A stretch of 64,000 bases of DNA, from positions 388,043 to 452,042 of the forward strand of contig NZ_LR027850.1 of the NCBI RefSeq assembly GCF_900607235.1, in the 5' to 3' direction. A model generated the notes under the pieces. The model was not told the origin of the DNA, made no database searches, and saw only the letters and a list, made by a program, of their open reading frames with translations. A program made the translations under genes and the position numbers. The DNA comes from Olivibacter jilunii. Its GTDB lineage: Bacteria; Bacteroidota; Bacteroidia; Sphingobacteriales; Sphingobacteriaceae. Positions 43,597 to 58,405 of this stretch are shown one piece after another (the stretch's first letter is position 1; each line of letters opens with the position of its first letter).

Positions 43597-44163
43597 ATGG
43601 TTAACGGCATTACGTTTTATCGTTTAATAGCCGCTCCTTTTCTCCTGTTTCTTATTTTTTCTGAACAGCTTAACTGGTTCAAATGGTTACTAGCCTTCAG
43701 CTTTTTTACCGATGCCATCGACGGGTTTTTGGCTAGAAAGTACAAGGTTGTGAGTGTTATGGGCGCCAAGATGGACTCCATTGCGGACGATTTAACCATA
43801 TTGGTGGCCGTTATTGGGCTATTTGTCTATCACAAGGATTTCCTATACAGGGAGTATAGTTGGATACTCGTATTGCTTATTCTCTTTCTCATTCAAGTTG
43901 GCTCAGCGTTGATTCGTTACGGAAAATTTACCAGCTTTCATACCTACCTCGCTAAAGTGGCCGCCGTTGCCCAAGCACTTTTCTTAATACCGTCATTTTT
44001 TCTTACCACGCCTTCTTTACCCTTATTTTATATCGCGATCGCCTTGACGACTTTAGATCTACTCGAAGAAACCATCATGGTGTGGCTGTTGCCCAAGTGG
44101 AAAGCCGACGTCAAGGGGATAAAGGAAGCGCTGCGAGTGCGACGGAAGCAAAATCCAAGCTAG
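43597..44163 (+). CDS. CDP-alcohol phosphatidyltransferase family protein
   Basis: A 188-residue membrane enzyme from ATG 43597 (MVNGITFYRLIAAPF, the usual family opening); ATG 43576 adds a non-homologous tail. The CDP-AP motif D-G-x2-A-R-x8-G-x3-D-x3-D is complete in DGFLARKYKVVSVMGAKMDSIADD (~42-65; split here). About six TMs. It joins CDP-diacylglycerol or a similar lipid-CDP donor with an alcohol such as glycerol-3-phosphate or inositol. A TPP riboswitch and terminator precede it. Last four bases overlap the convergent kinase gene. Confidence 0.9.
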   Translation: MVNGITFYRLIAAPFLLFLIFSEQLNWFKWLLAFSFFTDAIDGFLARKYKVVSVMGAKMDSIADDLTILVAVIGLFVYHKDFLYREYSWILVLLILFLIQVGSALIRYGKFTSFHTYLAKVAAVAQALFLIPSFFLTTPSLPLFYIAIALTTLDLLEETIMVWLLPKWKADVKGIKEALRVRRKQNPS

Positions 44164-47100
44164 GCCTGTTGAATGGGTAGACTGAACCAAAACGTGGAAC
44201 CTTCGCCTGGTGAACTGACTGCGCCGATTTGACCCTGATGACGCTTAATGATGTCCGACGAAATGAACAGGCCTAAACCCAGTCCTGAAAATTGTGACGA
44301 CGATTCCTCTACGCGGAAAAAGCGGTCAAATACCAGATCGAGCTTTTCCTGTGGTATGCCGATGCCGTAATCTTTTACCGAAATCTTCACTTCGGACTCG
44401 TTCCGTTCTGTAAATAAGTCAACCTTGTCCGCTTTGGGCGAATACTTGATGGCATTGGTCAAAAAATTAATCAATACCTGCTCAATGCGGTTTTTATCGG
44501 CATATACATCGACATCTATATTGCCGTGTATTTGAATCGTATGGCCCCCCATATTTTTTACCTCGTACACACAATCTTGTATCAATTCATTGATGTTAAA
44601 CGTTGATTTCTGTAAGATAATCTTTCCTGCCTGAATCTTCGTTACGTCCAGCAGATTTTCGATTAAGAAAGTAATCTTGTCGACCTGCTGATTAGCTTTC
44701 GCTACAAATGTTTTAAGCATACCATTGGGCCCGCCTTTTTCCGCTAGTCGATCGATAAGCTGCAAGCTGGCTTTCATGCTTGTAATAGGCGTTTTTAATT
44801 CGTGGCTGGCAATGCTCATAAACTCATCCTTCTTGGTAGCTAATTCCCTGGTAGCTAACTCGGCTTCTTTTAATGTACTTACATCCATTAATGAGCTGAT
44901 TACTCGAAAAGGCATACCGGACTCATTATTCAGGATAAAACTTCTATCGAACACGTGGCAGTAAGAGCCATCCCCTTTGTGAAAACGATATTCGCCGCTC
45001 CATTGTTCGGCACCTTGGTTAATCGCTTTAAGCAAATCTTTTCGTACAGCTTTCACATCCTCGGGATGGATTTTGCTGAACCATTGATTGATTTCCTTTA
45101 AATTCTCTTCCGACTTATAGGCGAAGATGGAATAGAAATTATCGCTGTACCATACCGTATTATTAACAAGATCCCAATCGCGTATGCAGTCGTTGGTGGC
45201 ACGAGCTACCAACCGAAAACGTTCTTCGCTGAGGGCCAATTCCGCTGTTCTTTTCGCTACCTCGTCTTCCAAGCCACTATTCAGATTCTTTAACTGTTCG
45301 CGGGTAACAACCAGTTCATTATAGTTTTTGCGCAGTCTGTCTGTCGTCTCTCGTTGCAGGGTAATATCATTAAAAGTGAGCGCCAGGCCGTCTCTCATTT
45401 TAACCATACTTATCTCAAACCACTGTTCGCGGTTGTCGATCTGTAAATTACAGGCAATCTTACGAGCAGTTCCGGAAGAATAGGTGTCAAGTAGTTTTTT
45501 GGTGACCCGCTGGCCGAGGCGTTTGCTTAAATGCCCGAAAAAGGACGGATGTTCTTTATGAATAGCTAGTTTATCTAACAGATTGATTCCTGCTTCATTC
45601 TGGGTGAGCAAGGCAAATTGTTGATCGGGGCTTGAAGCGTCTTTATTGACCGCTAGCACAAATATGGCTTCTAAGCTGGCATCAAATACGGCTTTGATGA
45701 TGCTGTTCAGGTTTTCCAAAGCGGAAATATCAATGAAGCTTAATACAAGGCCATCAATCTCTTTGTCGCGCCGAACAAAAGGATAAATACGCATAAGGTA
45801 GATGCGGCTATCCTGTAATTGCACCTCTTTTTCGTAAAAGCCTTTGTCGCTTTGCGCTTTCTTAATATCTTCCAACAGGTTATCATTGGCAAGATTATTG
45901 GAAATATGGCCGATGGGCCGTCCGATGTCACCTTCTATTAAATTAATCAGGCGCATGGCTTGCGGGTTAAACTTCCGGATTTTTAAATCCTTGTCCAGAA
46001 ATACCTGACCGACCTCCGTGCTTTTGAAGTAATTGTCAAGGTCATCATTCAACTCGATGAGCTCCTTAATCTTCAGCTGGTGCTCCGTGTTTAATGTATG
46101 CAACTCCTCATTGAGCGACTGCAACTCTTCGTTGGAACTTTGTAACTCTTCGTTACTGGATAATAATTCTTCATTGGAGCTCTGGAGTTCTTCATTGGTT
46201 GTCTCCAATCCTTCTATCGCCAATTGCAAATTATTACGTGTTTCGCTCAATTGCTCTTCCAGCTCTTGAATGTAGCGCTTTTCATCCGGGGAATCGCTGC
46301 GCGGCGTAAACGTCGATAGGGGTTCATGTTCCCGCAGCGGGATGGTTGCATCAATAAAGACCAGCATGGATAAATGCTCGTGTGGAGGTGCCGCTGGGTG
46401 TATGTGAATATTTACATGATTGATCTGGTCATTCTTATGGAAGCTTAAGCCGGTTAACGATACTTTTATTCCTTCTTGTCTCGATTCACGTATGGCATTG
46501 CTCAATGGTAGTTTTACCTCCTCGGGAACCATACTGAGGATATTCAAATTCAGCTTTTTTTTGGGAAGGCTCAAATAATTGTGGTAGTTGCCGAGGGTTT
46601 CTTTGACCTCATTGTAGCCGTCTATATAGATAACGGTATAACCGAGTTCGTCCAACATGAGTTGTTGAAAATCACGACGAAGGCTTTCACTGACACTCAG
46701 TGATTCAGTGGCTTTCCTGGGAACATACGAAGTGCTGACGGTACCAAGTGCATTGCCATATTCACCCAAGTACTTTTTCAGTTGATGTGGTGATCTTTTG
46801 AAAATTTTCCATTTGCCCGATATTTGCTCAAACCCATTTTCAAGAGCCCCGGTGGTTTCACTGGGTCCTAAAAATAAGGCACCGCCCGGTTTCAGGGCAA
46901 AATGAAAGATCGACAATATTTTCTCTTGCAATACCTTGTTCATGTAGATCAGCATATTGCGACAACTGATCAGATCGTTCTTTATAAAAGCCGGATCTTT
47001 GATGACATTATGGTGAGCGAAAACAACTTGCTTTCGAATACGTGGTATAACGGTATAGTGATTATCCTCTAGCGTGAAATAGCGTTTCAATATCGAAGAG

Positions 47101-48209
47101 GGTACATCTTTTTCAATGGATAAGGGATATCGATTTCTGCTGGCAAGTCGAATGTTACTTTCATCGACATCGGTGGCAAAAATCTTTACCGGAAGCCGAG
47201 TTGCCGTCTGCTGAAGGTATTGATCCAGCGATATGGCCAATGAATAGGCTTCCTCGCCGGTACTACAGGCACAAACCCATATCTTAAAGGTCTCCCCGGT
47301 TGCTTTTTGCTTGACCAGCGATGGGTAAACTTGTTCTTCTAGGTAACGGAACGCTTCGGGGTCCCGAAAAAAACGCGTCACATTGATTAATAAATCATTT
47401 GCTAAACTATGCACCTCGTCCGCATTTCCTTCCAGGAATTCGATGTATTTTTGAACGCTTTTTATTTGCTGCAGCCGTATGCGCCGCGAAATACGGCGGA
47501 TAATCGTCGGCGTTTTATAATAATTGAAGTCGCGATCACTGTTTTCATGCACCAGCGCTAAAATACGATCCACCTGTTGATCGTTCAGCTCACCGCTCAG
47601 CGCTTCATCTTCCCCATTCATGAGCTGTATATAATCCAGCATCTGCTGAGGCATTTCCTTAGGAGACAATATCGCATCCGCATAGCCACTCATAATGGCC
47701 ATATTAGGCATGCCGTCAAATTTAGCTGTATTCGGCTCTTGTACGAGCACATAGCCTTTGTTCTTTTTTATAGCCTGAATACCTTTGGTACCATCACTTC
47801 CCGTACCGGAGAGGATGACGGCAATGGCCCTTTCCTGTTGGTCATTTGCCAGCGAGTCCAAAAAAATATCAATGGCGTTGTTGGGAACATTGTTGACCAC
47901 TTTTTCGGCTAAGCATAAGGTCCCATTATGAATGGTCATGCTCATCCGATTAGGGATGACATAAATAGCCGCTCGCTCCACCGCCATATTGTCTTTGGCT
48001 TCCAGCACTTTCATTTGGGTATGCTTGGAAACCAATTCCACTAAAAGACTCTTATAATCGGGCGATAAATGTTGTATAATGATAAAAGATAATTGTGAAA
48101 AATCCTGTACGGCATCGAAAAAGCTATTGATAGCTTCTAAGCCACCGGCAGAGGCTCCAATGGCTACTATATAATGGGCCGTTTCTCTTATATCCTTTTT
48201 TTCGGTCAT
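44160..48209 (-). CDS. CheB-CheR-PAS-histidine kinase fusion protein
   Basis: A 1349-residue hybrid from ATG 48209 (MTEKKDIRETAHYIVAIG). CheB methylesterase (~8-190): GASAGG, IIQHLSP and LSGTGSDGTKG hold the Ser-His-Asp triad. CheR methyltransferase (~205-475): NVTRFFRDPEAF, VWVCACSTGEEAYSLA, DVDESNIRLA and the SCRNMLIYM loop. A long coiled coil (~655-735) with a repeated SSNEEL heptad. PAS domains (~740-860, ~875-980, ~1010-1110), then HisKA (SIASHELKTPITSM) and a complete HATPase to the end. No receiver domain. Directly downstream (27 bases) of the bacteriophytochrome module, which suggests a kinase acting in trans. Confidence 0.93.
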   Translation of the reverse strand: MTEKKDIRETAHYIVAIGASAGGLEAINSFFDAVQDFSQLSFIIIQHLSPDYKSLLVELVSKHTQMKVLEAKDNMAVERAAIYVIPNRMSMTIHNGTLCLAEKVVNNVPNNAIDIFLDSLANDQQERAIAVILSGTGSDGTKGIQAIKKNKGYVLVQEPNTAKFDGMPNMAIMSGYADAILSPKEMPQQMLDYIQLMNGEDEALSGELNDQQVDRILALVHENSDRDFNYYKTPTIIRRISRRIRLQQIKSVQKYIEFLEGNADEVHSLANDLLINVTRFFRDPEAFRYLEEQVYPSLVKQKATGETFKIWVCACSTGEEAYSLAISLDQYLQQTATRLPVKIFATDVDESNIRLASRNRYPLSIEKDVPSSILKRYFTLEDNHYTVIPRIRKQVVFAHHNVIKDPAFIKNDLISCRNMLIYMNKVLQEKILSIFHFALKPGGALFLGPSETTGALENGFEQISGKWKIFKRSPHQLKKYLGEYGNALGTVSTSYVPRKATESLSVSESLRRDFQQLMLDELGYTVIYIDGYNEVKETLGNYHNYLSLPKKKLNLNILSMVPEEVKLPLSNAIRESRQEGIKVSLTGLSFHKNDQINHVNIHIHPAAPPHEHLSMLVFIDATIPLREHEPLSTFTPRSDSPDEKRYIQELEEQLSETRNNLQLAIEGLETTNEELQSSNEELLSSNEELQSSNEELQSLNEELHTLNTEHQLKIKELIELNDDLDNYFKSTEVGQVFLDKDLKIRKFNPQAMRLINLIEGDIGRPIGHISNNLANDNLLEDIKKAQSDKGFYEKEVQLQDSRIYLMRIYPFVRRDKEIDGLVLSFIDISALENLNSIIKAVFDASLEAIFVLAVNKDASSPDQQFALLTQNEAGINLLDKLAIHKEHPSFFGHLSKRLGQRVTKKLLDTYSSGTARKIACNLQIDNREQWFEISMVKMRDGLALTFNDITLQRETTDRLRKNYNELVVTREQLKNLNSGLEDEVAKRTAELALSEERFRLVARATNDCIRDWDLVNNTVWYSDNFYSIFAYKSEENLKEINQWFSKIHPEDVKAVRKDLLKAINQGAEQWSGEYRFHKGDGSYCHVFDRSFILNNESGMPFRVISSLMDVSTLKEAELATRELATKKDEFMSIASHELKTPITSMKASLQLIDRLAEKGGPNGMLKTFVAKANQQVDKITFLIENLLDVTKIQAGKIILQKSTFNINELIQDCVYEVKNMGGHTIQIHGNIDVDVYADKNRIEQVLINFLTNAIKYSPKADKVDLFTERNESEVKISVKDYGIGIPQEKLDLVFDRFFRVEESSSQFSGLGLGLFISSDIIKRHQGQIGAVSSPGEGSTFWFSLPIQQA

Positions 48210-48236
48210 AGAAAGATGATACTGCAATAATAATAA

Positions 48237-49739
48237 TTATTCCTGCGCATTTTTACTTAAATACTCAAATACGTAGAGTCGGATGGCGTGAGCTGCCTCT
48301 TTTTCTTCCTCTTTCCAAGGGATGGATGAGTTCTTCACCTCTTGTTTCCAAATCCGGAAGGAATTACGTGGATGATAAGTGCCGGCATCCTGCTCGAAAT
48401 TCACGGCTTCGTTTGGATTTCCTCCCCAGTCAATGGTATAAGGGTGTTCAGATCTAAAACACAACAGATAATTTCCCTTGTGTTTGTCTATTTCGATGGC
48501 CAATAAACCGCTGGCCATATTCGAGTACGCTTGCGCTTCTTCAAATTCATTTGTCATACTATTACTAACAAAAACCGGTTCTAATTGCTTTTCCTGTAAC
48601 CAAAAGACAAGGTTTTGTAATTGCTCTTCGGTTGGAACAGCGCCGGTGCTATAGTATTTATTGTCGTATATTAATACGGCCCCTTGCGCACTAAATAGTT
48701 TCAATAAATGATATTCGTTATCAAAAAGTGCTTTTTCAAGGGAAACTTCGCGGTATAGATTGCGAAGGATAGCATTTTTATGAGTTGAGATGGTGCTGTT
48801 GAAAGCAAAGGTCTCGGCATTTAACAGATTGGCAAGTTGTTTCGAAACAAAATCAGCCAGTAGCTCAAACTGACAGCAGGTTTCGAAATTCGGGTAGCGC
48901 GGTGTATTATGATGAAAGGAGATCAGCCCCCAAAGTGTATCATTTACGAGAAGCCGCACAGACATGCTGGCATCTACTTCCATATTATGCAGGTATTCCA
49001 AATGCACCGGTGCAACACTCCGTAGATGGCAATCAGACAAATCAACAAACGACATACTGAGTGGGTTGATAATCGGGTAAAGCTTTACCGGTTCATAATG
49101 GGAGGTCGGTATCAAGCGATAGGGGCTTTTTTTATAGAGTTCTCTTGCGCTCTTCGGAATATCGGAAGCCGGGAATTGTTGGCCTAAATAGCTCACCTTC
49201 CCGCTATGGTTTGCCTCCGCAACGACTTTTCCATTCCAATTTTCATCGAACTGATAAATCATCACGCGATCAAAACCTGAAAGTAGCTGGAATTGATGGG
49301 CCGTAGCTGATAAAAGTGTGGGCAGGTCATGCTTTTGTTCTAGCTCTGCAAAATTATACCGAAGCGCTTGATAAATTTCCAAAAAACTTTTTTCTTCGCT
49401 TGTGGGGCTTAATTCTACTAATAGATAAGGCCCTTTCATATGGATTAGCGCTAAAAATAAGCTGTCGGCCAAACGTAGACGAAACGGAATCTTTTGACTG
49501 CTGAAGTGGTTGCCGGTAAGCCTTTCAGTATGCAGCGGTTCGTCCAGCCAATCATTGATAGTGGTTCCGATAATGGCATCTAGGGGCTGATTGAATAGCG
49601 CTGCTATGTTTTCGCTTACTTGTACGATCTCCAAATGTTCCGGATCTAAAACTAAGAGATACCCATGAGGCTGAATTAAATTAACATTATGTAGGGGTAT
49701 TTTTCCGCAAAATTCAGCATCATAGTTTCTGATCGTCAT
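48237..49739 (-). CDS. Bacteriophytochrome photosensory module (PAS-GAF-PHY) without kinase
   Basis: A 500-residue protein with the three-domain sensory core. PAS_2 (~1-125) with Cys 11 ahead of LIQPHGYLLVLD, the spot of the biliverdin-binding Cys. GAF (~135-305) with FPASDIPKSARELYKKSPYRLI (DIP motif) and RSVAPVHLEYLHNMEVDASMSV (chromophore His). PHY (~320-500) with WGGNP and YHPRNSFRIW (PRxSF tongue). There is no histidine kinase or other output domain; the CheB-CheR-kinase gene 27 bases downstream is the likely partner. Confidence 0.92.
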   Translation of the reverse strand: MTIRNYDAEFCGKIPLHNVNLIQPHGYLLVLDPEHLEIVQVSENIAALFNQPLDAIIGTTINDWLDEPLHTERLTGNHFSSQKIPFRLRLADSLFLALIHMKGPYLLVELSPTSEEKSFLEIYQALRYNFAELEQKHDLPTLLSATAHQFQLLSGFDRVMIYQFDENWNGKVVAEANHSGKVSYLGQQFPASDIPKSARELYKKSPYRLIPTSHYEPVKLYPIINPLSMSFVDLSDCHLRSVAPVHLEYLHNMEVDASMSVRLLVNDTLWGLISFHHNTPRYPNFETCCQFELLADFVSKQLANLLNAETFAFNSTISTHKNAILRNLYREVSLEKALFDNEYHLLKLFSAQGAVLIYDNKYYSTGAVPTEEQLQNLVFWLQEKQLEPVFVSNSMTNEFEEAQAYSNMASGLLAIEIDKHKGNYLLCFRSEHPYTIDWGGNPNEAVNFEQDAGTYHPRNSFRIWKQEVKNSSIPWKEEEKEAAHAIRLYVFEYLSKNAQE

Positions 49740-50782: not shown

Positions 50783-51238
50783 ATGACAAAAAATCCGCTG
50801 TTAGATGAGCAAACAATCGCCTTTCTGAAAGAGTTCGCTGAAAGTATTCGTGCCGAAATTGACGCCATACAATGTACCATTGATATCGTGCAGAAACGAA
50901 AGCAAATTTCTGTTTTTCATGAACCCAAAATGACGGATGCTGCAACAGAAGAGGCGGTTTCTTCCCCAGCGAAATGGAGGAGAGGTGTTCTGGTGCCTGT
51001 TGAAAAATTCGACCCTTTCGGTAAATTGGATAGAAAAATTGCCTATGCGCTCACACGTTTAGGAACGGGCGACCGCGATGCCATTTTAAACGAAATCCAT
51101 CAGGCGCAACCGGACCGGGATAAATACAAACTGGAGAACGCTTTGGCGGTGCGGATGAATTACCTCTTGAAGAACGGTTTTGTGGATGCGCAAAAAATCG
51201 GAAGAAAGTATCAATACCAATTGCTCAAGACGGACTGA
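50783..51238 (+). CDS. Hypothetical protein with coiled-coil start and winged-helix-like end
   Basis: A 151-residue protein. The first ~45 residues form a helix with regular hydrophobic spacing (FLKEFAESIRAEIDAIQCTI). The C-terminal half (YALTRLGTGDRDAILNEIHQA, then RMNYLLKNGFVDAQKIGRKYQYQL) looks like a winged helix. No known family assigned. Stand-alone, 200 bases before the sugar-acid operon; a regulatory link is only positional. Confidence 0.6.
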   Translation: MTKNPLLDEQTIAFLKEFAESIRAEIDAIQCTIDIVQKRKQISVFHEPKMTDAATEEAVSSPAKWRRGVLVPVEKFDPFGKLDRKIAYALTRLGTGDRDAILNEIHQAQPDRDKYKLENALAVRMNYLLKNGFVDAQKIGRKYQYQLLKTD

Positions 51239-51444: not shown

Positions 51445-52761
51445 ATGGAAAGAATTATTGCGAAATACTATATTGAAACTCCCTTTGATCCGGAAAAAGC
51501 GGCTTTGATCTTGGCGGGCGAACAATCGTCGGGTACCTTCGTGTCGGTTCCGGGTGAAACGGAAGATCTAAAGCGACGCTTTGCTGCGCGTGTGGAAAGC
51601 GTTCACCTGCTGGGATCGGTTTCACAGCCGGCCATTCCGAGCCCGAAGTTCACATCCGAACGGTATCAACGAGCTTATATCGAAATCTCCTGGTCGATAG
51701 AAAATTTTGGCTATAATTTACCGGTGCTTATTTCCACTTTGCAAGGGAATCTTTATGAGCTCAGTCAGTTCACGGGCTTAAAATTATTAGATATCCAATT
51801 TCCTACCGCCTATGTCGCTCATTTTGAGGGGCCTCGTTTTGGAGTGGCCGGTTCCCGAGCAAGTACAAAGGTGGACGGACGACCCTTGATCGGCACCATT
51901 ATTAAACCGAGTATTGGCATGAGCCCTTCGGATAGTGCTAAATTGGTGAAAACCTTGGTGGAGGCCGGTATTGACTTCATAAAAGATGACGAACTGCAAT
52001 CAGCAGCAGCTAACTCCAAGTTGGAAGATCGGGTTGACGCCATTATGCGTGTCATCAATACGCATGCGGACAAAACCGGGAAAAAGGTCATGTATGCTTT
52101 TAACATTAGCGATGAATTGGATAGCATGTTGTCTCGTTATGACTATATCGTTAGGGCAGGCGGGACCTGCGCCATGCTCAGTATCAATAGTATTGGCCTT
52201 GCCGGCGTAAAAAAAATATGTGATCAGGGTGCATTGGTTATCCACGGTCATCGGAATGGTTGGGGTATGCTGAATAGGCACCCCCTGCTGGGTATTGAAT
52301 TTACGGCCTACCAAAAACTTTGGCGCTTGGCAGGCGTAGATCAGCTACATGTAAATGGAATTCAGAATAAATTCTGGGAATCGGATGACTCGGTGGTACA
52401 GTCCATCGAAGCTTGCTTAACGCCTTTATTTTCTCGTGAAACATTATTGCCCGTGGTATCTTCCGGTCAGTGGGGAGGGCAAGCCTTTGAAACCTACAGG
52501 CGTACGAAAACCATTGATTTATTGTACATGGCAGGAGGCGGGATTATGGCGCATCCCAAAGGTCCCGGTGGGGGTGTGGTGGCCTTGCAACAGGCTTGGG
52601 AGGGCGCGGTTAAAGGACTTTCCATGGAAGAGGCCGTTCGACTATATCCTGAATTTGCCCAATCGGTTCAAAAATTTGGTCAGCAATGGACATGGATGCA
52701 ATGCAGGCCCCTTTCTTCGCCTATTATGGTGATGATTTTACCGGATCTACCGACGCCTTAG
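51445..52761 (+). CDS. RuBisCO-like protein, candidate 3-oxo-isoapionate-4-phosphate transcarboxylase/hydrolase (OiaX-type)
   Basis: A 438-residue RuBisCO-like protein with N-terminal alpha/beta domain (~1-140) and TIM barrel (~150-420). GTIIKPSIG has the Lys that starts the reaction (Lys 154); GIDFIKDDE has Lys 180 and the Asp/Glu metal ligands (181-183) in RuBisCO order. HGHRNGWG, NGIQNKFWE and AGGGIMAHPKGPGGG are the later phosphate/loop-6 sites. The second Lys of the IKPK motif is Ser here, so it is not a true RuBisCO. OiaX of apionate catabolism is the closest known role, since a DUF1537 kinase overlaps its 3' end. A C-terminal tail after KFG runs into the kinase frame. Confidence 0.85.
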   Translation: MERIIAKYYIETPFDPEKAALILAGEQSSGTFVSVPGETEDLKRRFAARVESVHLLGSVSQPAIPSPKFTSERYQRAYIEISWSIENFGYNLPVLISTLQGNLYELSQFTGLKLLDIQFPTAYVAHFEGPRFGVAGSRASTKVDGRPLIGTIIKPSIGMSPSDSAKLVKTLVEAGIDFIKDDELQSAAANSKLEDRVDAIMRVINTHADKTGKKVMYAFNISDELDSMLSRYDYIVRAGGTCAMLSINSIGLAGVKKICDQGALVIHGHRNGWGMLNRHPLLGIEFTAYQKLWRLAGVDQLHVNGIQNKFWESDDSVVQSIEACLTPLFSRETLLPVVSSGQWGGQAFETYRRTKTIDLLYMAGGGIMAHPKGPGGGVVALQQAWEGAVKGLSMEEAVRLYPEFAQSVQKFGQQWTWMQCRPLSSPIMVMILPDLPTP

Positions 52762-54089
52762 AATGTCTCAATCAGGCGGGGTTAAAAACCGTATTATTTA
52801 TTGATGTGCCGAACGTTGAACAGTTGGCACGCTATCCCGGGATACAGGCTATTGGTGTTGCCGGCATGACGCGAACCATGGATCCGGTGGCTATGGGAAA
52901 CGAGTTGTCGCAAGCCTTTGCTGCTTTAAAAGCATTGGGAGTTCGACATGTGCATTACAAAGTTTGTTCAACCTTCGACTCCTCGCCGCAAATAGGGAGT
53001 ATCGGTACGGCCGCAGAAGTTGGGATCAGTGTCTTTAATCCCCGCCTTGTTCCCTTATTGGTGGCTGCCCCGCCTTTGGGAAGATTTTGTTTATTCGGTA
53101 ACCTTTTTGCCAAAATGGGAATCGGTAGTCGAGGCGATATTTATCGCCTGGATCGCCACCCTGCTATCAGTTACCATCCCGTTACACCCATGCAAGAGGC
53201 GGATTTGCGTTTGCATTTATCCAAACAAACGGAATTACCCATTGGCTTGGTGGACATTTTATCGGTTCACCAGGGGGTGGAGGAAATTAGGATAAAAACG
53301 CAGGCATGCTTAGACCTGGGAATTCCGATGGTGCTTTTTGATGCTCTTCATCTTTCGGATTTAATGCCGATCGCCGAGGTGCTGGATGCATACGGCACAC
53401 TGGAGAAACCCCTGTTTTCAATAGGATCTTCAGGCGTAGAAATGGCTTTCGGTATGTATTGGAAGACCAGGGGGGTGGCGAAACAAACGGTGGATTGGCC
53501 AGCTTTAAACCGTGTCGGAAAGCTTTTGGTACTTTCGGGCAGTTGCTCGCCTGTAACGGCGAAGCAAATCGAGTATGCGCTTCTTCATGGTTTTCGGGCA
53601 GTCGCTGTTCCTGCTTCTGCTGTTGATCCCGCTGCCGATTTACAAACGCTTATGCGCAGCTGTATAGAACAAACGCTTGCTTTTATGGAAGCGGGCTTTC
53701 CCGTAATTCTGCATACCAGTTTAGGTCAAGAGGATGAACGAATTGCGGAAACGCGTGAATTGCTGCGTCAAAAAGGATATGCCGAAACGGAGATAAGTGC
53801 ACAAACAGCCCGCATTCACGGGCAAGTGTTAGGTGAAATTGCTCGCTATATTGCAAGGACTACTGATTTGGGACGTCTTGGCGTAGCAGGAGGCGATACC
53901 TCAAGCCTCATTGCGCGTGCTTTAGGAATAGAAGCAGTAGAGATGATTGCTCCGTTTTCACCCGGTGCACCTTTATGCCGGGCCTTCGCACCTAACACAC
54001 CCTTGGATGGAATAGAAATTAATTTCAAGGGAGGACAAGTAGGGGATGAACATTATTTTATTAAGCTATGGGGCGCGAACGCTTCTTAA
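52686..54089 (+). CDS. Four-carbon acid sugar kinase family (DUF1537), candidate 3-oxo-isoapionate kinase (OiaK-type)
   Basis: A 467-residue kinase. N-terminal sugar-binding domain (~10-235) opens with AYYGDDFTGSTDALECL; C-terminal nucleotide-binding domain (~260-467) ends with RLGVAGGDTSSLIARALGI and PGAPLCR. The start ATG 52686 lies 76 bases inside the RuBisCO-like gene; ATG 52701 is also possible. DUF1537 kinases phosphorylate C4 acids and oxo-sugar acids; next to a RuBisCO-like protein the OiaK function (3-oxo-isoapionate to its 4-phosphate) is the best candidate. No ApnO or ApnL is in this window. Confidence 0.87.
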   Translation: MDMDAMQAPFFAYYGDDFTGSTDALECLNQAGLKTVLFIDVPNVEQLARYPGIQAIGVAGMTRTMDPVAMGNELSQAFAALKALGVRHVHYKVCSTFDSSPQIGSIGTAAEVGISVFNPRLVPLLVAAPPLGRFCLFGNLFAKMGIGSRGDIYRLDRHPAISYHPVTPMQEADLRLHLSKQTELPIGLVDILSVHQGVEEIRIKTQACLDLGIPMVLFDALHLSDLMPIAEVLDAYGTLEKPLFSIGSSGVEMAFGMYWKTRGVAKQTVDWPALNRVGKLLVLSGSCSPVTAKQIEYALLHGFRAVAVPASAVDPAADLQTLMRSCIEQTLAFMEAGFPVILHTSLGQEDERIAETRELLRQKGYAETEISAQTARIHGQVLGEIARYIARTTDLGRLGVAGGDTSSLIARALGIEAVEMIAPFSPGAPLCRAFAPNTPLDGIEINFKGGQVGDEHYFIKLWGANAS

Positions 54090-54101
54090 ATATTTTATGA
54101 T

Positions 54102-54764
54102 ATGATACCAAAAACTTTAGGACTTATTCATACGTCGGCTACGTTGATTCCGGTATTTCAGCAACTATGCCAGCAATATTTGCCGGGCGTAAATCTCTTC
54201 AATATTGTAGATGATAGTTTGGTGAAGAATATTATTGCACGAGGCGGTAAACTTACGCCGTCCATCTCCAAGCGGGTGGCAGATTATGTCGCCTCAGCGG
54301 AAGATTCAGGTGCCGATTATATTCTGGTTACTTGCTCGTCCATCGGTGCTGCGGTAGAGGCGGCAGCCGACACTGTCAGGGTGCCGGTACTTAGGGTAGA
54401 TCAACCGATGGCCGACCTGGCTGTACAGAAAGGTAAACGGATAGGTGTTATCGCAACGCTCCGAACTACCCTGGAGCCAACAGCCGACCTGGTGCAACGA
54501 AGAGCTGCCTTGCTAGGAAAGGAAATTGAAATAAATGCACGATTATGTGAGGGCGCATTTGAAGCCTTAATGGGTGGTGATGCCGCTAAACACGATGAAT
54601 TAGTAGCAAAAGCATTGCGTCAACTGACGCAGGAAGTGGATGTTATTCTATTAGCCCAAGCAAGTATGGCACGAGTGGTTGATACATTAGCAGATGAAGA
54701 TAAGGGGGTACCGATCTTAGCCAGTCCTCCTAATGCCATCCAATATATTGCAAACTTAGTCTAA
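54102..54764 (+). CDS. Asp/Glu racemase superfamily protein with a single active-site Cys
   Basis: A 220-residue protein of the Asp/Glu/hydantoin racemase fold. The first active-site Cys 78 is present in YILVTCSSIGAAV, but the second Cys, normally in an LGCT(H/G) loop, is replaced in VILLAQASMARVV. One-Cys members of the superfamily may be isomerases or decarboxylases with other chemistry instead of racemases. Sits 12 bases after the kinase gene and two before the transporter, so it belongs to the same operon and likely acts on the same sugar acid. Confidence 0.8.
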   Translation: MIPKTLGLIHTSATLIPVFQQLCQQYLPGVNLFNIVDDSLVKNIIARGGKLTPSISKRVADYVASAEDSGADYILVTCSSIGAAVEAAADTVRVPVLRVDQPMADLAVQKGKRIGVIATLRTTLEPTADLVQRRAALLGKEIEINARLCEGAFEALMGGDAAKHDELVAKALRQLTQEVDVILLAQASMARVVDTLADEDKGVPILASPPNAIQYIANLV

Positions 54765-54766
54765 GG

Positions 54767-56059
54767 ATGCCCATGATGCATTTACGAAGAGCCTGTTTGG
54801 GAGTAAGTGGCATTGCCGCCCTTCTCCTATTACTTGGGATTGTGTTGCAAAACGAAGCCATCTGGCAACCTGCTGCGGTTTGTACCGCCTTGGGCCTAGC
54901 GGTGGGTATCGGAAGCATCGATATACTGAGAAATTACCAATACACAGCCTGGATTATTGTTGCAGTCGTTTCGGCCATGATTTATCCACGAGCTTTTATG
55001 CAATGGGGTGAAGTGGATTTGAGGAATAAATGGTTAATCCTAATCATTATACAGCTCGTTATGTTCGGTATGGGAATACAAATGAGCATTCGTGATTTTT
55101 CGGGTCTAGGTAGTACGGGCAGAGGAGTTTTGATTGGCTTAATCTGCCATTTTTCGGTGATGCCTTTGGTTGGGTATTTATTGACACGTTTGTTCCCTTT
55201 TGATGACGAAATCGCTGCCGGCATTATTCTCATAGGCTCTTGTTCGAGCGGTTTGGCTTCCAACGTGATGGTATACCTGGCGCGGGCAAACTTGGTTTTA
55301 TCGGTAACGGTTACGGCGATGGCCACGCTGGCGGCACCTTTTTTAACGCCTTTGCTGATGCGTTTGCTGGCAGGGACATTGATTGAAGTGAAATTTTTGC
55401 CGATGATGCTGGAAATTATACAGATCGTCATCGTGCCTATAGGAGCGGCCCTGTTACATGATTACCTCAAAACGGCCAAGCCCGCACGAAAGAAGCTTGT
55501 GGTCGTCATCGGACTCGTCTGCGCCGGTTGGCTCTTCTCGCAGGTGCTATTTTTATGGGATTTATTAGCCTCGCATTTCTCGGTGCCGGCCGGCCAATCT
55601 TTGACTGTCCTGAACTTTTTTACGGGGGCATTTATTGTGGGCGGACTATATCACCTTCTTTATCTCCGCTTTAAGCGTATTGATCAGTTAGTGCCCTATG
55701 TATCGATGTTTGGCATTGTTTATTTCACCACGGTAACTACCGCTGCCGGCAGGGAGCATCTGTTACAAGTGGGGCTGCTCTTATTTTTGGCTTCGGTTTT
55801 GCATAATGGTGCTGGTTACTTCTTCGGTTACTGGCTTGCCCGCCTTTTTAAATTAGATAAAAATTCCGCCCGCACCATTGCTTTTGAAGTAGGTTTACAA
55901 AATGGTGGGATGGCATCGGGCTTAGCAGGAAGTATGGGTAAATTGGCAACCGTAGGTTTAGCCGCTGCTGTATTCAGTCCATGGATGAATATTTCCGGAT
56001 CTTTATTGGCTAATTATTGGCGGAAAAGACCGGTCATTGATGAGAACGAAGAGAAGTAA
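54767..56059 (+). CDS. Bile-acid:sodium symporter (BASS) family transporter
   Basis: A 430-residue inner-membrane protein. Unlike most BASS proteins (~320 residues), it has an extra N-terminal pair of TMs (~10-30 and ~32-50) before the core. The core shows GIQMSIRDFSGL, LIGSCSSGLASNVMVYLARANLVLSVTVTAMAT (the sodium-site helix crossing, in parts) and AFEVGLQNGGMASGLA. Such transporters move organic acids with Na+. Two bases after the racemase-like gene, it is the obvious importer for the operon's sugar acid. Confidence 0.85.
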   Translation: MPMMHLRRACLGVSGIAALLLLLGIVLQNEAIWQPAAVCTALGLAVGIGSIDILRNYQYTAWIIVAVVSAMIYPRAFMQWGEVDLRNKWLILIIIQLVMFGMGIQMSIRDFSGLGSTGRGVLIGLICHFSVMPLVGYLLTRLFPFDDEIAAGIILIGSCSSGLASNVMVYLARANLVLSVTVTAMATLAAPFLTPLLMRLLAGTLIEVKFLPMMLEIIQIVIVPIGAALLHDYLKTAKPARKKLVVVIGLVCAGWLFSQVLFLWDLLASHFSVPAGQSLTVLNFFTGAFIVGGLYHLLYLRFKRIDQLVPYVSMFGIVYFTTVTTAAGREHLLQVGLLLFLASVLHNGAGYFFGYWLARLFKLDKNSARTIAFEVGLQNGGMASGLAGSMGKLATVGLAAAVFSPWMNISGSLLANYWRKRPVIDENEEK

Positions 56060-56133
56060 ATACCGCTAATTTCTTTTATGCAAAACTTTTAGCAAGAATC
56101 GGAGGTTTCTATTGGGAACAGCAAGGTGTGGCT

Positions 56134-57027
56134 ATGACGGCTTTCTTTAACCCCATTATTAAACATAAATATACAGCTGATCCAACAGTTATAAGTTACG
56201 GTGATCGCGTCTACCTCTACACCGGGCATGATGATCCGCCTCCTGGAGTTGATGATTATGTGATGAACGATTGGTGCTGTTTTTCTTCGAACGACTTAAT
56301 GAATTGGGAAGAGCATCCGACTCCACTAAAGGCGACCGATTTTTCCTGGGCTTCGGGTGATGCCTTCGCGTCTAATGTGGTGTGTCGTGATCACATTTTT
56401 TACTGGTATGTAGCCGTTTCCCATCGATCAATTTTCGGAAAAGCAATCGGTGTAGCGGTGTCCAATAGGCCAACAGGTCCATTTACCGATGCTAAAGGGT
56501 CGGCGCTGATTACCGGCGATATGTTACCCTGTCCCACAACGGAAAAGGCAAACCTGGATCCGAGTGTGGTCATCGATGACATCGGACAAGCTTATTTATT
56601 TTGGGGAAATACGACCTGTTATTACGCGAAGTTGAAGGCGAATATGATCGAGTTGGACAGTGACATCCAAGTGGTGAATGTCCCCGCATTTGGGGAAGGG
56701 GCACACGTCCTTAAGCGGAATGGATGGTATTACTTGATGTATGGTTATGGTTTTCCGGAAGACATAGCCTATGCCATGAGCCCCACCGTGCATGGGCCGT
56801 GGGATTTCAAAGGAGTTATCAATAAGATGCCCTATAACTGTGAAACGAATCGTGCGGCGACACTTGATTTTCAAGGAAAATCTTATTTTTTTTATCATAA
56901 TGGAGCTTTAGAAGGAGGAGGCAGTCACAGACGGTCGGTCTGCCTCGACCTCCTTTCCTACAGGCCCGATGGCACCATCGAGCCGATTATCGTGACCCGA
57001 GAAGGAATAACAGCCGATGAGGGTTGA
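56134..57027 (+). CDS. Glycoside hydrolase family 43 protein, no signal peptide
   Basis: About 297 residues from ATG 56134 (GTG 56128 possible). Five-bladed propeller opening NPIIKHKYTADPTVI with the general base Asp, LDPSVVIDD with the pKa-tuning Asp, and FGEGAHVLKRNGWYYLMY with the general acid Glu: the full GH43 set. No signal peptide, so it should cut small oligosaccharides in the cytoplasm, e.g. arabinosides or xylosides. It begins about 75 bases after the BASS transporter and probably belongs to the same operon. Confidence 0.9.
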   Translation: MTAFFNPIIKHKYTADPTVISYGDRVYLYTGHDDPPPGVDDYVMNDWCCFSSNDLMNWEEHPTPLKATDFSWASGDAFASNVVCRDHIFYWYVAVSHRSIFGKAIGVAVSNRPTGPFTDAKGSALITGDMLPCPTTEKANLDPSVVIDDIGQAYLFWGNTTCYYAKLKANMIELDSDIQVVNVPAFGEGAHVLKRNGWYYLMYGYGFPEDIAYAMSPTVHGPWDFKGVINKMPYNCETNRAATLDFQGKSYFFYHNGALEGGGSHRRSVCLDLLSYRPDGTIEPIIVTREGITADEG

Positions 57028-57034
57028 TCTGACT

Positions 57035-58405
57035 TTACTTGGCACCGTCTATTGCTGACTTTTCTACTTTTCGAGCTGCAGGTGTTTTAAACTGTGCATG
57101 CTCAATTTTTAGTACAATTGGATTGGGCCATTGGTTGTTGGTGTAGAAACGTTGCCCATTGACAGCACTCACAGCGAGGCCGGCCGGGCTTGTGCTAGCT
57201 ATTGTTTTTGCTGATAACCCTTCTTGGTACTCAACTAGCTCACTTTTGTAACCCAGTATACTCACTTTGGTCTGTTCACTTCCGATGATATAGGGAAGTA
57301 AGAAGTTTCTCCGGGCGCCATAGGCCCAATCGGATGGCTCTTCACGTGTAACGAATGCGTAAATAGTCTCGTCATTATTTGCTTGAGTAAACCAGATGTC
57401 GCCATCACGTATAGTTGGCAAGGGCTTGACCTCATAAATTGATTCTCTGTTGGCAAAGTTCCATAAGGCAATTTCACGAAGCAGGTTCTCTTGTTCTGTT
57501 TGCATGGATCCATTTGGTTTAGGGCCTACATTTAATAGAAAATTACCACCTTTCGCCCGAATTTCAATCAACATGTTGATAATCTCCGTACCGCTTTTAT
57601 GTGGATCATTGGTGGCTTTGTATTGCCAGTCGGTGCCCATCGTATAACAGGCTTCCCAAGGACGAGGTAAGGGAGCGTCAGGAATATGCTGTTCAGGTGT
57701 TTTCATCAGATCGCGCGTAATCACCAGATCAGGATTGATACTCCAGGCATATTCGCGAAGTCCATCTCCCGGGCCGTCGATGAAAAGGATATCGATATTT
57801 CCATAATGGGTTAGCAATTCCTTCAACTGCGCTTTATCATAGTCAAATAAGGCTTTGTTATTTGCCGGATAATGCATAGGATGCTGTAAGCGACCTAAAG
57901 GAAGTTTCTGGCGATGAAGGAAATAAAAATCTTCCGGCGAAAAATAAATGCCGATAGCGATGCCTTGCTTTCGAAAGGCGTCAATAAGCTGCTTCGTGAT
58001 ATCCCCTTTATAAGGCGTATTCATTACATTAAAGGGCGTTGTCTTGGTATCAAACATACAGAAACCGGCATGATGCTTTGCGGTAAATACTACATATCTC
58101 ATGCCTGCCAATTTGGCCATCATCGCCCATTCGTCGGGATTAAACTCCTTCGGGTTGAAAAAATGAGGAAGCTCTTCGATGTAGCGATTCACATAATCGT
58201 CCGATGCACCGGCTAGGGAGTGACTAATAACACCACCCAAGGAGACGTCTACGTTCCAATGAATAAACATACCGAAGGCTAAATCCTGAAACCAGGCAAC
58301 TCGCTCCGGCTTGTTGTCTTTCTGTTGGGCATTCGCGCATAAGAGGATATGAAAAATCGCAAAAGATAGATAGAAACATTTGAGGCGAAGTTTTGAAAAT
58401 AGCAT
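57035..58405 (-). CDS. Glycoside hydrolase family 29 alpha-L-fucosidase, secreted
   Basis: A 456-residue enzyme with a Sec signal cleaved near ANA-QQ (residue ~26). TIM-barrel signature: RYVVFTAKHHAGFCMFDT (~104-120), the catalytic nucleophile Asp 210 in NIDILFIDGPGD, and GGNFLLNVGPKPNG (~280). Cleaves alpha-L-fucose from glycans in the periplasm. It converges on the GH43 gene across seven bases; its promoter faces the response-regulator gene. Confidence 0.93.
   Translation of the reverse strand: MLFSKLRLKCFYLSFAIFHILLCANAQQKDNKPERVAWFQDLAFGMFIHWNVDVSLGGVISHSLAGASDDYVNRYIEELPHFFNPKEFNPDEWAMMAKLAGMRYVVFTAKHHAGFCMFDTKTTPFNVMNTPYKGDITKQLIDAFRKQGIAIGIYFSPEDFYFLHRQKLPLGRLQHPMHYPANNKALFDYDKAQLKELLTHYGNIDILFIDGPGDGLREYAWSINPDLVITRDLMKTPEQHIPDAPLPRPWEACYTMGTDWQYKATNDPHKSGTEIINMLIEIRAKGGNFLLNVGPKPNGSMQTEQENLLREIALWNFANRESIYEVKPLPTIRDGDIWFTQANNDETIYAFVTREEPSDWAYGARRNFLLPYIIGSEQTKVSILGYKSELVEYQEGLSAKTIASTSPAGLAVSAVNGQRFYTNNQWPNPIVLKIEHAQFKTPAARKVEKSAIDGAK

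Follow-up and report, generated by a model that had tools for sequence, protein, structure and literature searches.

A four-gene unit built around a RuBisCO-like protein is a candidate cassette for aceric acid catabolism in rhamnogalacturonan II degraders

Closest described systems and the locus in Olivibacter jilunii

Rhizobia use ApnO to make HOCH2-CO-C(OH)(COOH)-CH2OH from apionate; this compound is the substrate of the kinase OiaK, and the RuBisCO-like protein (RLP) OiaX acts on the resulting 3-oxo-isoapionate-4-phosphate. In the Otn pathways for four-carbon sugar acids (OtnI, OtnK, OtnC), a DUF1537 kinase acts after a ketol isomerase. A review (PMC6302742) names two RLPs that act on 3-oxo-isoapionate-4-phosphate, one as a decarboxylase and the other as a transcarboxylase/hydrolase. 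Here we describe a unit of four genes, encoding an RLP, an OiaK-like kinase of the DUF1537 (four-carbon acid sugar kinase) family, a one-Cys Asp/Glu-racemase-fold protein (here the racemase-like protein), and a BASS-family (sodium:organic acid) importer, in the 6.7-Mb genome of Olivibacter jilunii. The stretch analyzed, called the window, comprises 64,000 nucleotides (contig NZ_LR027850.1, positions 388,043 to 452,042). The reading that we favor, and that we hold to be evenly poised between right and wrong, is that the unit forms a mobile, self-sufficient cassette for the breakdown of aceric acid (AceA), a constituent of the pectin rhamnogalacturonan II (RG-II).

The four genes are tightly packed on the + strand. 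The RLP gene (51445..52761, 438 amino acids [aa]; Pfam RuBisCO_large, 213 bits) overlaps the kinase gene (52686..54089, 467 aa) by 76 bases, and gaps of 12 and 2 bases precede the genes for the racemase-like protein (54102..54764, 220 aa) and the importer (54767..56059, 430 aa). Relatives of the RLP end near 52683, while the frame in the window continues for about 25 residues inside the kinase gene (52684-52761); this tail is likely read-on after the loss of a stop codon. The unit has a G+C content of 47.6%, compared to 43.3% for the window. After a further 68 bases comes a GH43 glycoside hydrolase gene (56128..57027, + strand, 299 aa; Pfam Glyco_hydro_43, 132 bits; gly43N in the PDB, 310 bits), followed by a convergent gene for a GH29-like alpha-L-fucosidase (57035..58405, − strand; Pfam Alpha_L_fucos, 214 bits, with matches to PDB fucosidases).

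A scan of bacterial genomes with the RLP recovered at least 577 relatives, and conservation was assessed at the 80 best-scoring loci, 13 of which had short flanks. The order RLP, kinase, racemase-like gene, and importer, all on one strand, was kept in 70 of the 80. Four Dyadobacter loci carried the racemase-like gene and importer on the opposite strand, three loci were broken off by a contig end, L049 (L numbers are our locus labels) had no visible kinase, and L038 and L039 had the RLP alone. In L039 and L049, where no kinase was seen, members of the BT1020-like cluster and of a GH43 cluster came after the RLP. A phylum-wide scan gave eight RLP orthologues in 395 (at least 658 bits; next value 204). 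That number was too small to test co-occurrence, and 150 related genomes were therefore searched for the RLP, the racemase-like gene, GH127, and the BT1020-like protein. The RLP was present in 13 of them, and the racemase-like gene (at least 272 bits) in the identical 13; elsewhere among the 150 the racemase-like query gave two matches of 20 to 23 bits only. All four genes also adjoin a pectinesterase on a plasmid of Rufibacter tibetensis.

Counterparts of the window's GH43 and GH29-like genes were found in 0 of the 80 loci, which rules both out as operon members; because the GH43 is never kept, the unit comprises four genes, not five. A reading made earlier from the letters of 51445-57027 (the sequence-only reading) had proposed a five-gene operon for plant sugar acids, akin to OiaK/OiaX but possibly differing in substrate or route. 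Its account of five + strand genes agrees with the frames and with Pfam for each, and the close packing of the first four is as it described. The assignment to plant sugar acids, the relationship to OiaK/OiaX, and the divergent substrate or route are borne out. So is the gene order as far as the importer; that reading had named the absence of its gene order from related genomes as a sign against it. The inclusion of GH43 fell away. The racemase-like protein and importer, which it took as mere additions, turned out to be core members of the conserved unit. Overall, that interpretation is partly supported.

Family placement and catalytic residues

Family scores and phylogeny place the RLP outside both OiaX and MtnW. 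Against the NCBIfam model for OiaX (NF042437, cut-off 700), it scored 506 bits, and three relatives scored 505-522, compared to 785 for a rhizobial OiaX. Scores for the MtnW enolase models were 112 bits (TIGR03332, cut-off 514) and 151 bits (NF007095, cut-off 409), and a function in methionine salvage was rejected on these values. RuBisCO form III and form I models gave 217 and 207 bits (cut-offs 497 and 438), and the nearest solved structure by sequence was 3nwr (390 bits). A tree of 45 RLPs grouped all 25 rows that come from the unit in a single clade (99/96), which also takes in rows from Verrucomicrobiota and Balneolota; its sister (95/93) held five rows, of which four are annotated OiaX. 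The sequence-only reading had called for such a phylogeny and had staked itself on a position outside the methionine-salvage clade, which is what the tree and the scores indicate. The RLP of the window grouped with those of O. domesticus and Mucilaginibacter, whereas that of another genome of the genus (L024) grouped with Sphingobacterium (100/99); this placement of two genomes of one genus in different groups points to horizontal transfer. Outgroup branches were very long, and the tree was used only for the status of the unit clade and its place beside OiaX.

The catalytic residues separate the two sister clades. The motif KDDE was found at positions 180-183 of the window's RLP, and E26, N102, K154, K180, D182, E183, H269, R270, H302, K309, and S339 were identical in 83 of 83 aligned RLPs of the unit, including the Lys 154 singled out by the sequence-only reading. 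We take these to correspond to RuBisCO E60, N123, K175, K201, D203, E204, H294, R295, H327, K334, and S379, a correspondence checked against one form II RuBisCO, in which the K309 column was off by one. At positions 26, 102, 302, and 339, which read E, N, H, and S in all 83 unit RLPs, the five OiaX-clade rows instead carried D, G, Q, and G/C. They also had G at position 220, where the equivalent of N220 is retained in the unit clade. From these differences, our reading is that the decarboxylase OiaX lost machinery for carboxylation and hydrolysis that the unit RLPs appear to have retained. Six other RLPs that adjoin a kinase retained E, N, H, and S at 26, 102, 302, and 339. One of the six, from Labrenzia, has for a neighbor an ApnO-like gene that shares 73% identity with its Rhizobium etli counterpart, and its locus is without the triose-phosphate-isomerase-like and RpiB-like partners that accompany rhizobial OiaX. 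The structure model of the window's RLP is weak over residues 273-279, and no conclusion here draws on it.

The transcarboxylase/hydrolase that acts on 3-oxo-isoapionate-4-phosphate in Xanthobacter would be expected to need the full RuBisCO catalytic set, and this set was found in the unit RLPs. An RLP of this type would explain why the unit is without downstream enzymes. The substrate proposed below differs from that of the Xanthobacter enzyme in having CHOH-CH3 for CH2OH.

Membership of the kinase in DUF1537 was clear (SBD_N, PF07005, 174 bits; NBD_C, PF17042, 111 bits; gathering scores 25 and 28). It scored 411 bits for OiaK (NF042436, cut-off 700) and 186 bits for 3-oxo-tetronate kinase (NCBIfam OxoTetrKin, cut-off 350). 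The importer matched the SBF domain (108 bits, cut-off 24), and gave 216 bits for NCBIfam PanS (cut-off 400) and 188 bits for a bacterial BASS protein in the PDB. OiaK and OiaX are thus the nearest named families for kinase and RLP, and in both systems the two genes adjoin; the unit nonetheless falls below both cut-offs, keeps the RuBisCO residues, has no triose-phosphate-isomerase-like or RpiB-like partner (compare L109), and brings its own racemase-like gene and importer. It also comes without a recognizable ApnO, as the sequence-only reading had noted. An ApnO-like query from the OiaX cluster of R. etli found no match in 48 of 50 RLP-bearing genomes, partial matches of 20 to 21 bits in the other two, and two partial matches of 24 bits in the window's own genome; the query was named from gene context, matched no NCBIfam model, and was used without a positive-control genome. 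It was 73-74% identical to its counterparts in the clusters of Paracoccus and Labrenzia, three OiaX-type clusters being compared. The model NF042435, considered as a candidate for ApnO, turned out to be QuiC and was uninformative.

The racemase-like protein belongs to PF01177 (Asp_Glu_race, 78.5 bits, cut-off 31), the family of Asp/Glu racemases and arylmalonate decarboxylase, whose fold and first Cys it shares. Its predicted structure (pLDDT 93.9) matched Glu/Asp racemases in the PDB. Of the two catalytic Cys residues of the racemases, C78 is retained and the second is replaced by A187 (within AQAS), while H164-D165 and Q186-x-S188 are conserved. H10, D37, C78, D100, H164, D165, Q186, S188, and S208 were invariant among the window protein, three unit members, the Rufibacter protein, and 11 plasmid relatives that we selected from 174 matching records. 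A sugar or sugar-acid kinase, class II aldolase, or RLP lay within about 6 kb in 8 of the 11 plasmid contexts: two from Deinococcus and one each from Neorhizobium (OtnK), Chelatococcus, Rhizobium WL3 (OtnK, OtnC, LtnD, and OtnI), Haloprofundus, Caballeronia (MtnK, MtnA), and Natronosalvus (RLP and kinase). None of these was found within that distance in Croceibacterium, Rhizobium N621, or Sinorhizobium M103. The eight contexts would suit a role ahead of a kinase, and we propose that the racemase-like protein is an aldose-ketose (ketol) isomerase. Relatives thus lie in or by Otn clusters; the unit differs from these in having an RLP where an OtnC-type aldolase stands and a kinase that is OiaK-like. 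Two of the plasmid contexts are from haloarchaea: in Natronosalvus (L148) the racemase-like protein occurs with an RLP and a DUF1537 kinase, and in Haloprofundus (L146) its companions are an OiaK-like kinase, which scores 486 bits (cut-off 700), and a class II aldolase.

The RG-II setting and a slot beside GH127

RG-II is a pectin of 13 sugars whose glycosidases were worked out in Bacteroides thetaiotaomicron (PMC12282258). Neighbor clusters of the 80 loci, named by Pfam searches of cluster representatives and selected single genes, included GH127, GH2, GH106, GH78-like, GH141, GH88, BT1020-like, GH28, SASA esterase, DUF5703, and SusC/SusD proteins, among others; no apiosidase (PF13204) was seen in the representatives and single genes covered. 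The largest cluster was GH127, found at 37 of the 80 loci and lying at most 700 bases away on the same strand in 26. Among 57 loci with an immediate same-strand upstream gene (drawn from those of the 80 in which genes were called, together with six further relatives), that gene was GH127 in 27, followed by GH2 with 5. One member of the GH127 cluster scored 813 bits against PDB 5mqo, which we take to be BT1003 of B. thetaiotaomicron, compared to 386 for an arabinofuranosidase. BT1003 is given as an aceric acid hydrolase in PMC10850190 and PMC5698469, one of which names RG-II. The commonest gene next to the unit is of BT1003 type; BT1003 itself only frees the sugar.

Co-occurrence pointed the same way. 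Among the 150 relatives, a BT1003-like GH127 (at least 850 bits; next value 367) was present in 21, comprising every one of the 13 RLP carriers and 8 of the 137 non-carriers. A full BT1020-like protein was present in 22, the same 21 plus one more (G084), and hence in 13 of 13 with the RLP and 9 of 137 without. Fisher's test for co-occurrence of the RLP with RG-II markers gave a P value of about 1e-13, with relatives treated as independent and relatedness uncorrected. GH127 was found at 713 bits or more in 50 of 50 RLP-bearing genomes searched from the 80 loci, five of which also belong to the 13. Because every RLP-bearing genome searched carries a BT1003-like GH127, the unit is, in this sample, restricted to RG-II degraders, and it is optional among them. 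The OiaX model found no match in a control genome, Bacteroides ihuae, which carries a BT1020-like protein. The sequence-only reading's plant sugar-acid operon was incomplete in this respect: the unit goes with RG-II degradation and most of all with a BT1003-like GH127, which in O. jilunii lies on another contig and so was out of that reading's sight.

That GH127 (58% identical to the query) stands in a run of SBP-like protein, two class III CoA-transferases, SBP-like protein, GFO/IDH dehydrogenase, MaoC, MFS transporter, GH106, GH127, esterase, and DUF5703. A Desertivirga locus (L042) is collinear from the second SBP-like gene onward and holds the four-gene unit between GH127 and the esterase; in O. 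jilunii about 185 bases separate these two genes, and the unit is absent from the slot. No unit was found around GH127 in the eight relatives that have GH127 without the RLP, and in six of them the esterase or DUF5703 directly follows GH127 (of the other two, L156 has esterase and DUF5703 on the other strand and L151 differs). The slot, filled in Desertivirga and empty here, suggests that the unit moves in and out as a block. It may have been lost from the slot in the window's lineage, or it may have been acquired elsewhere. A second accessory set, consisting of class III CoA-transferases, SBP-like proteins, a MaoC hydratase, a GFO/IDH dehydrogenase, and an MFS transporter, was seen whole or in part beside GH106-GH127 in the window's own genome (L130:5998-13513, contig C5) and in L042, L052, L149, L150, and L155. 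It may serve another RG-II acid.

A candidate route for aceric acid and competing explanations

AceA is a branched acid of side chain B of RG-II. It is 3-C-carboxy-5-deoxy-L-xylose (PMC8218411) and is O-acetylated in RG-II (PMC11360243); the esterase beside GH127 fits the O-acetyl group. From chemistry and gene context we infer the substrate, the order of steps, the products, and the places of action. A BT1003-like GH127 and an acetyl-esterase would release AceA outside the inner membrane, and the BASS protein would bring it in. The racemase-like protein would then shift the carbonyl from C1 to C2 in a single aldose-ketose step, giving HOCH2-CO-C(OH)(COOH)-CHOH-CH3, a beta-keto acid whose quaternary carbon bears a hydroxyl group. 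The kinase would phosphorylate C1, and the RLP would act on HO3P-O-CH2-CO-C(OH)(COOH)-CHOH-CH3, whose sole difference from the substrate of OiaX would be CHOH-CH3 instead of CH2OH. AceA would thus lie one aldose-ketose shift from an OiaK-like substrate, and importer, isomerase, kinase, and RLP would therefore suffice. Since the RLP retains the carboxylation and hydrolysis residues that OiaX lost, the expected outcome would be transcarboxylation plus hydrolysis to 3-phosphoglycerate and lactate; the alternative would be plain decarboxylation to a 5-deoxypentulose 1-phosphate.

Several observations weigh against this assignment. The racemase fold is not, to our knowledge, known as an aldose-ketose isomerase, and in Rhizobium WL3 the annotated OtnI isomerase near the racemase-like relative weakens that role. 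No GH127 was found in the flanks covered at 43 of the 80 loci, including all those named Flavobacterium, and the eight relatives with GH127 and no unit keep GH127 independently. GH127 and the BT1020-like protein mark RG-II degraders generally, so their co-occurrence with the RLP fails by itself to single out AceA from 3-deoxy-D-lyxo-heptulosaric acid (Dha), 3-deoxy-D-manno-octulosonic acid (Kdo), or apiose. The specificity of the BT1003-like GH127s near the unit is a prediction from sequence, and the CoA-transferase set may serve AceA in place of the four genes.

Other substrates were weighed on the same evidence. If apionate or a derivative were imported, a dehydrogenase and the racemase-like protein might replace ApnO, with the kinase and RLP acting on 3-oxo-isoapionate in the manner of OiaK with OiaX or of the transcarboxylase. 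We consider this variant unlikely: OiaK and OiaX are the closest families, GFO/IDH/MocA dehydrogenases lie close to some units, and apiose is an RG-II sugar (PMC6353982), but both equivalog cut-offs are missed and the only ApnO matches, in the 50 genomes and the window's own, are partial ones of 20 to 24 bits. The lack of an ApnO match makes the apionate route as such unlikely as well. Apiose may, moreover, already be served by other genes near the unit at five loci. Transketolase subunits lie close to it there, with a fucose-isomerase-like protein in L045, L051, and L102 and with an FGGY kinase and a ribose-type ABC importer in L025 and L101. These sets resemble the known apulose route for apiose, and possibly represent an apiose route in Bacteroidota, which we offer as a lead only. 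The likeness is weakened by family scores: a cluster-mate of the FGGY kinase, in L055, scores as glycerol kinase, and the fucose-isomerase-like protein scores weakly as sulfoquinovose isomerase. The binding protein of L101 is 47% identical to that beside rhizobial OiaX and ApnO; the likeness of the importers lies in this protein, as L101 and L109 differ in their DUF2291 proteins (19 bits).

A reading in which Dha or Kdo is cut to a four-carbon acid and the RLP decarboxylates 3-oxo-tetronate 4-phosphate in place of OtnC draws on the OtnK/OtnC-type genes close to racemase-like relatives and on the BT1020-like protein in 13 of 13 carriers among the relatives. It is distinctly improbable, as the unit has no aldolase, the kinase scores far higher for OiaK than for 3-oxo-tetronate kinase (411 and 186 bits), and the unit is tied most closely to GH127 rather than to the BT1020-like gene (cluster c24, 6 loci). 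A little easier to entertain, and still improbable, is that AceA is the substrate and the RLP a plain decarboxylase, with a class II aldolase encoded elsewhere splitting 5-deoxypentulose 1-phosphate into dihydroxyacetone phosphate and acetaldehyde. Aldolases do accompany racemase-like relatives, and the sister clade OiaX is named a decarboxylase (NCBIfam; PMC6302742); the unit itself lacks an aldolase, and E26, N102, N220, H302, and S339, lost in the five OiaX-clade rows, are retained in its clade. A methionine-salvage or other sulfur-sugar function has only the RuBisCO fold in its favor; with MtnW-type scores of 112-151 bits and no salvage genes among the neighbors identified, it is scarcely credible. 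As a further substrate, 2-carboxyarabinitol (hamamelonate) was set aside because the unit was confined to RG-II degraders in the sample.

Returning to the aceric acid cassette, the fullest version would be a first bacterial AceA route, in which an RLP relocates the carboxyl group of a six-carbon ketulose phosphate and splits the molecule into 3-phosphoglycerate and lactate with no loss of CO2, preceded by a new one-Cys racemase-fold isomerase, the entire route spreading as one four-gene cassette between RG-II degraders of several phyla. We put this forward tentatively, as a proposal rather more likely to fail in some part than to hold as a whole. Neither the catabolism of AceA after its release nor an RLP for AceA was described in the open-access PMC titles, abstract starts, and passages surveyed. 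The finding supplies four named candidate proteins for AceA breakdown. If true, it would extend the RuBisCO superfamily by a new substrate and perhaps by a reaction that conserves carbon. It would also assign a function to a one-Cys group within the racemase fold and provide a marker of bacteria able to use pectin's last sugars.

Three further frames lie upstream of the unit. Before the RLP, a 151-aa frame (50783-51238) had no Pfam or NCBIfam match. Farther upstream, a 1355-aa frame (44160-48227) resembles a CheB/CheR-PAS-histidine kinase hybrid and adjoins a phytochrome-like frame (48237-49739), both as judged from their translations alone.

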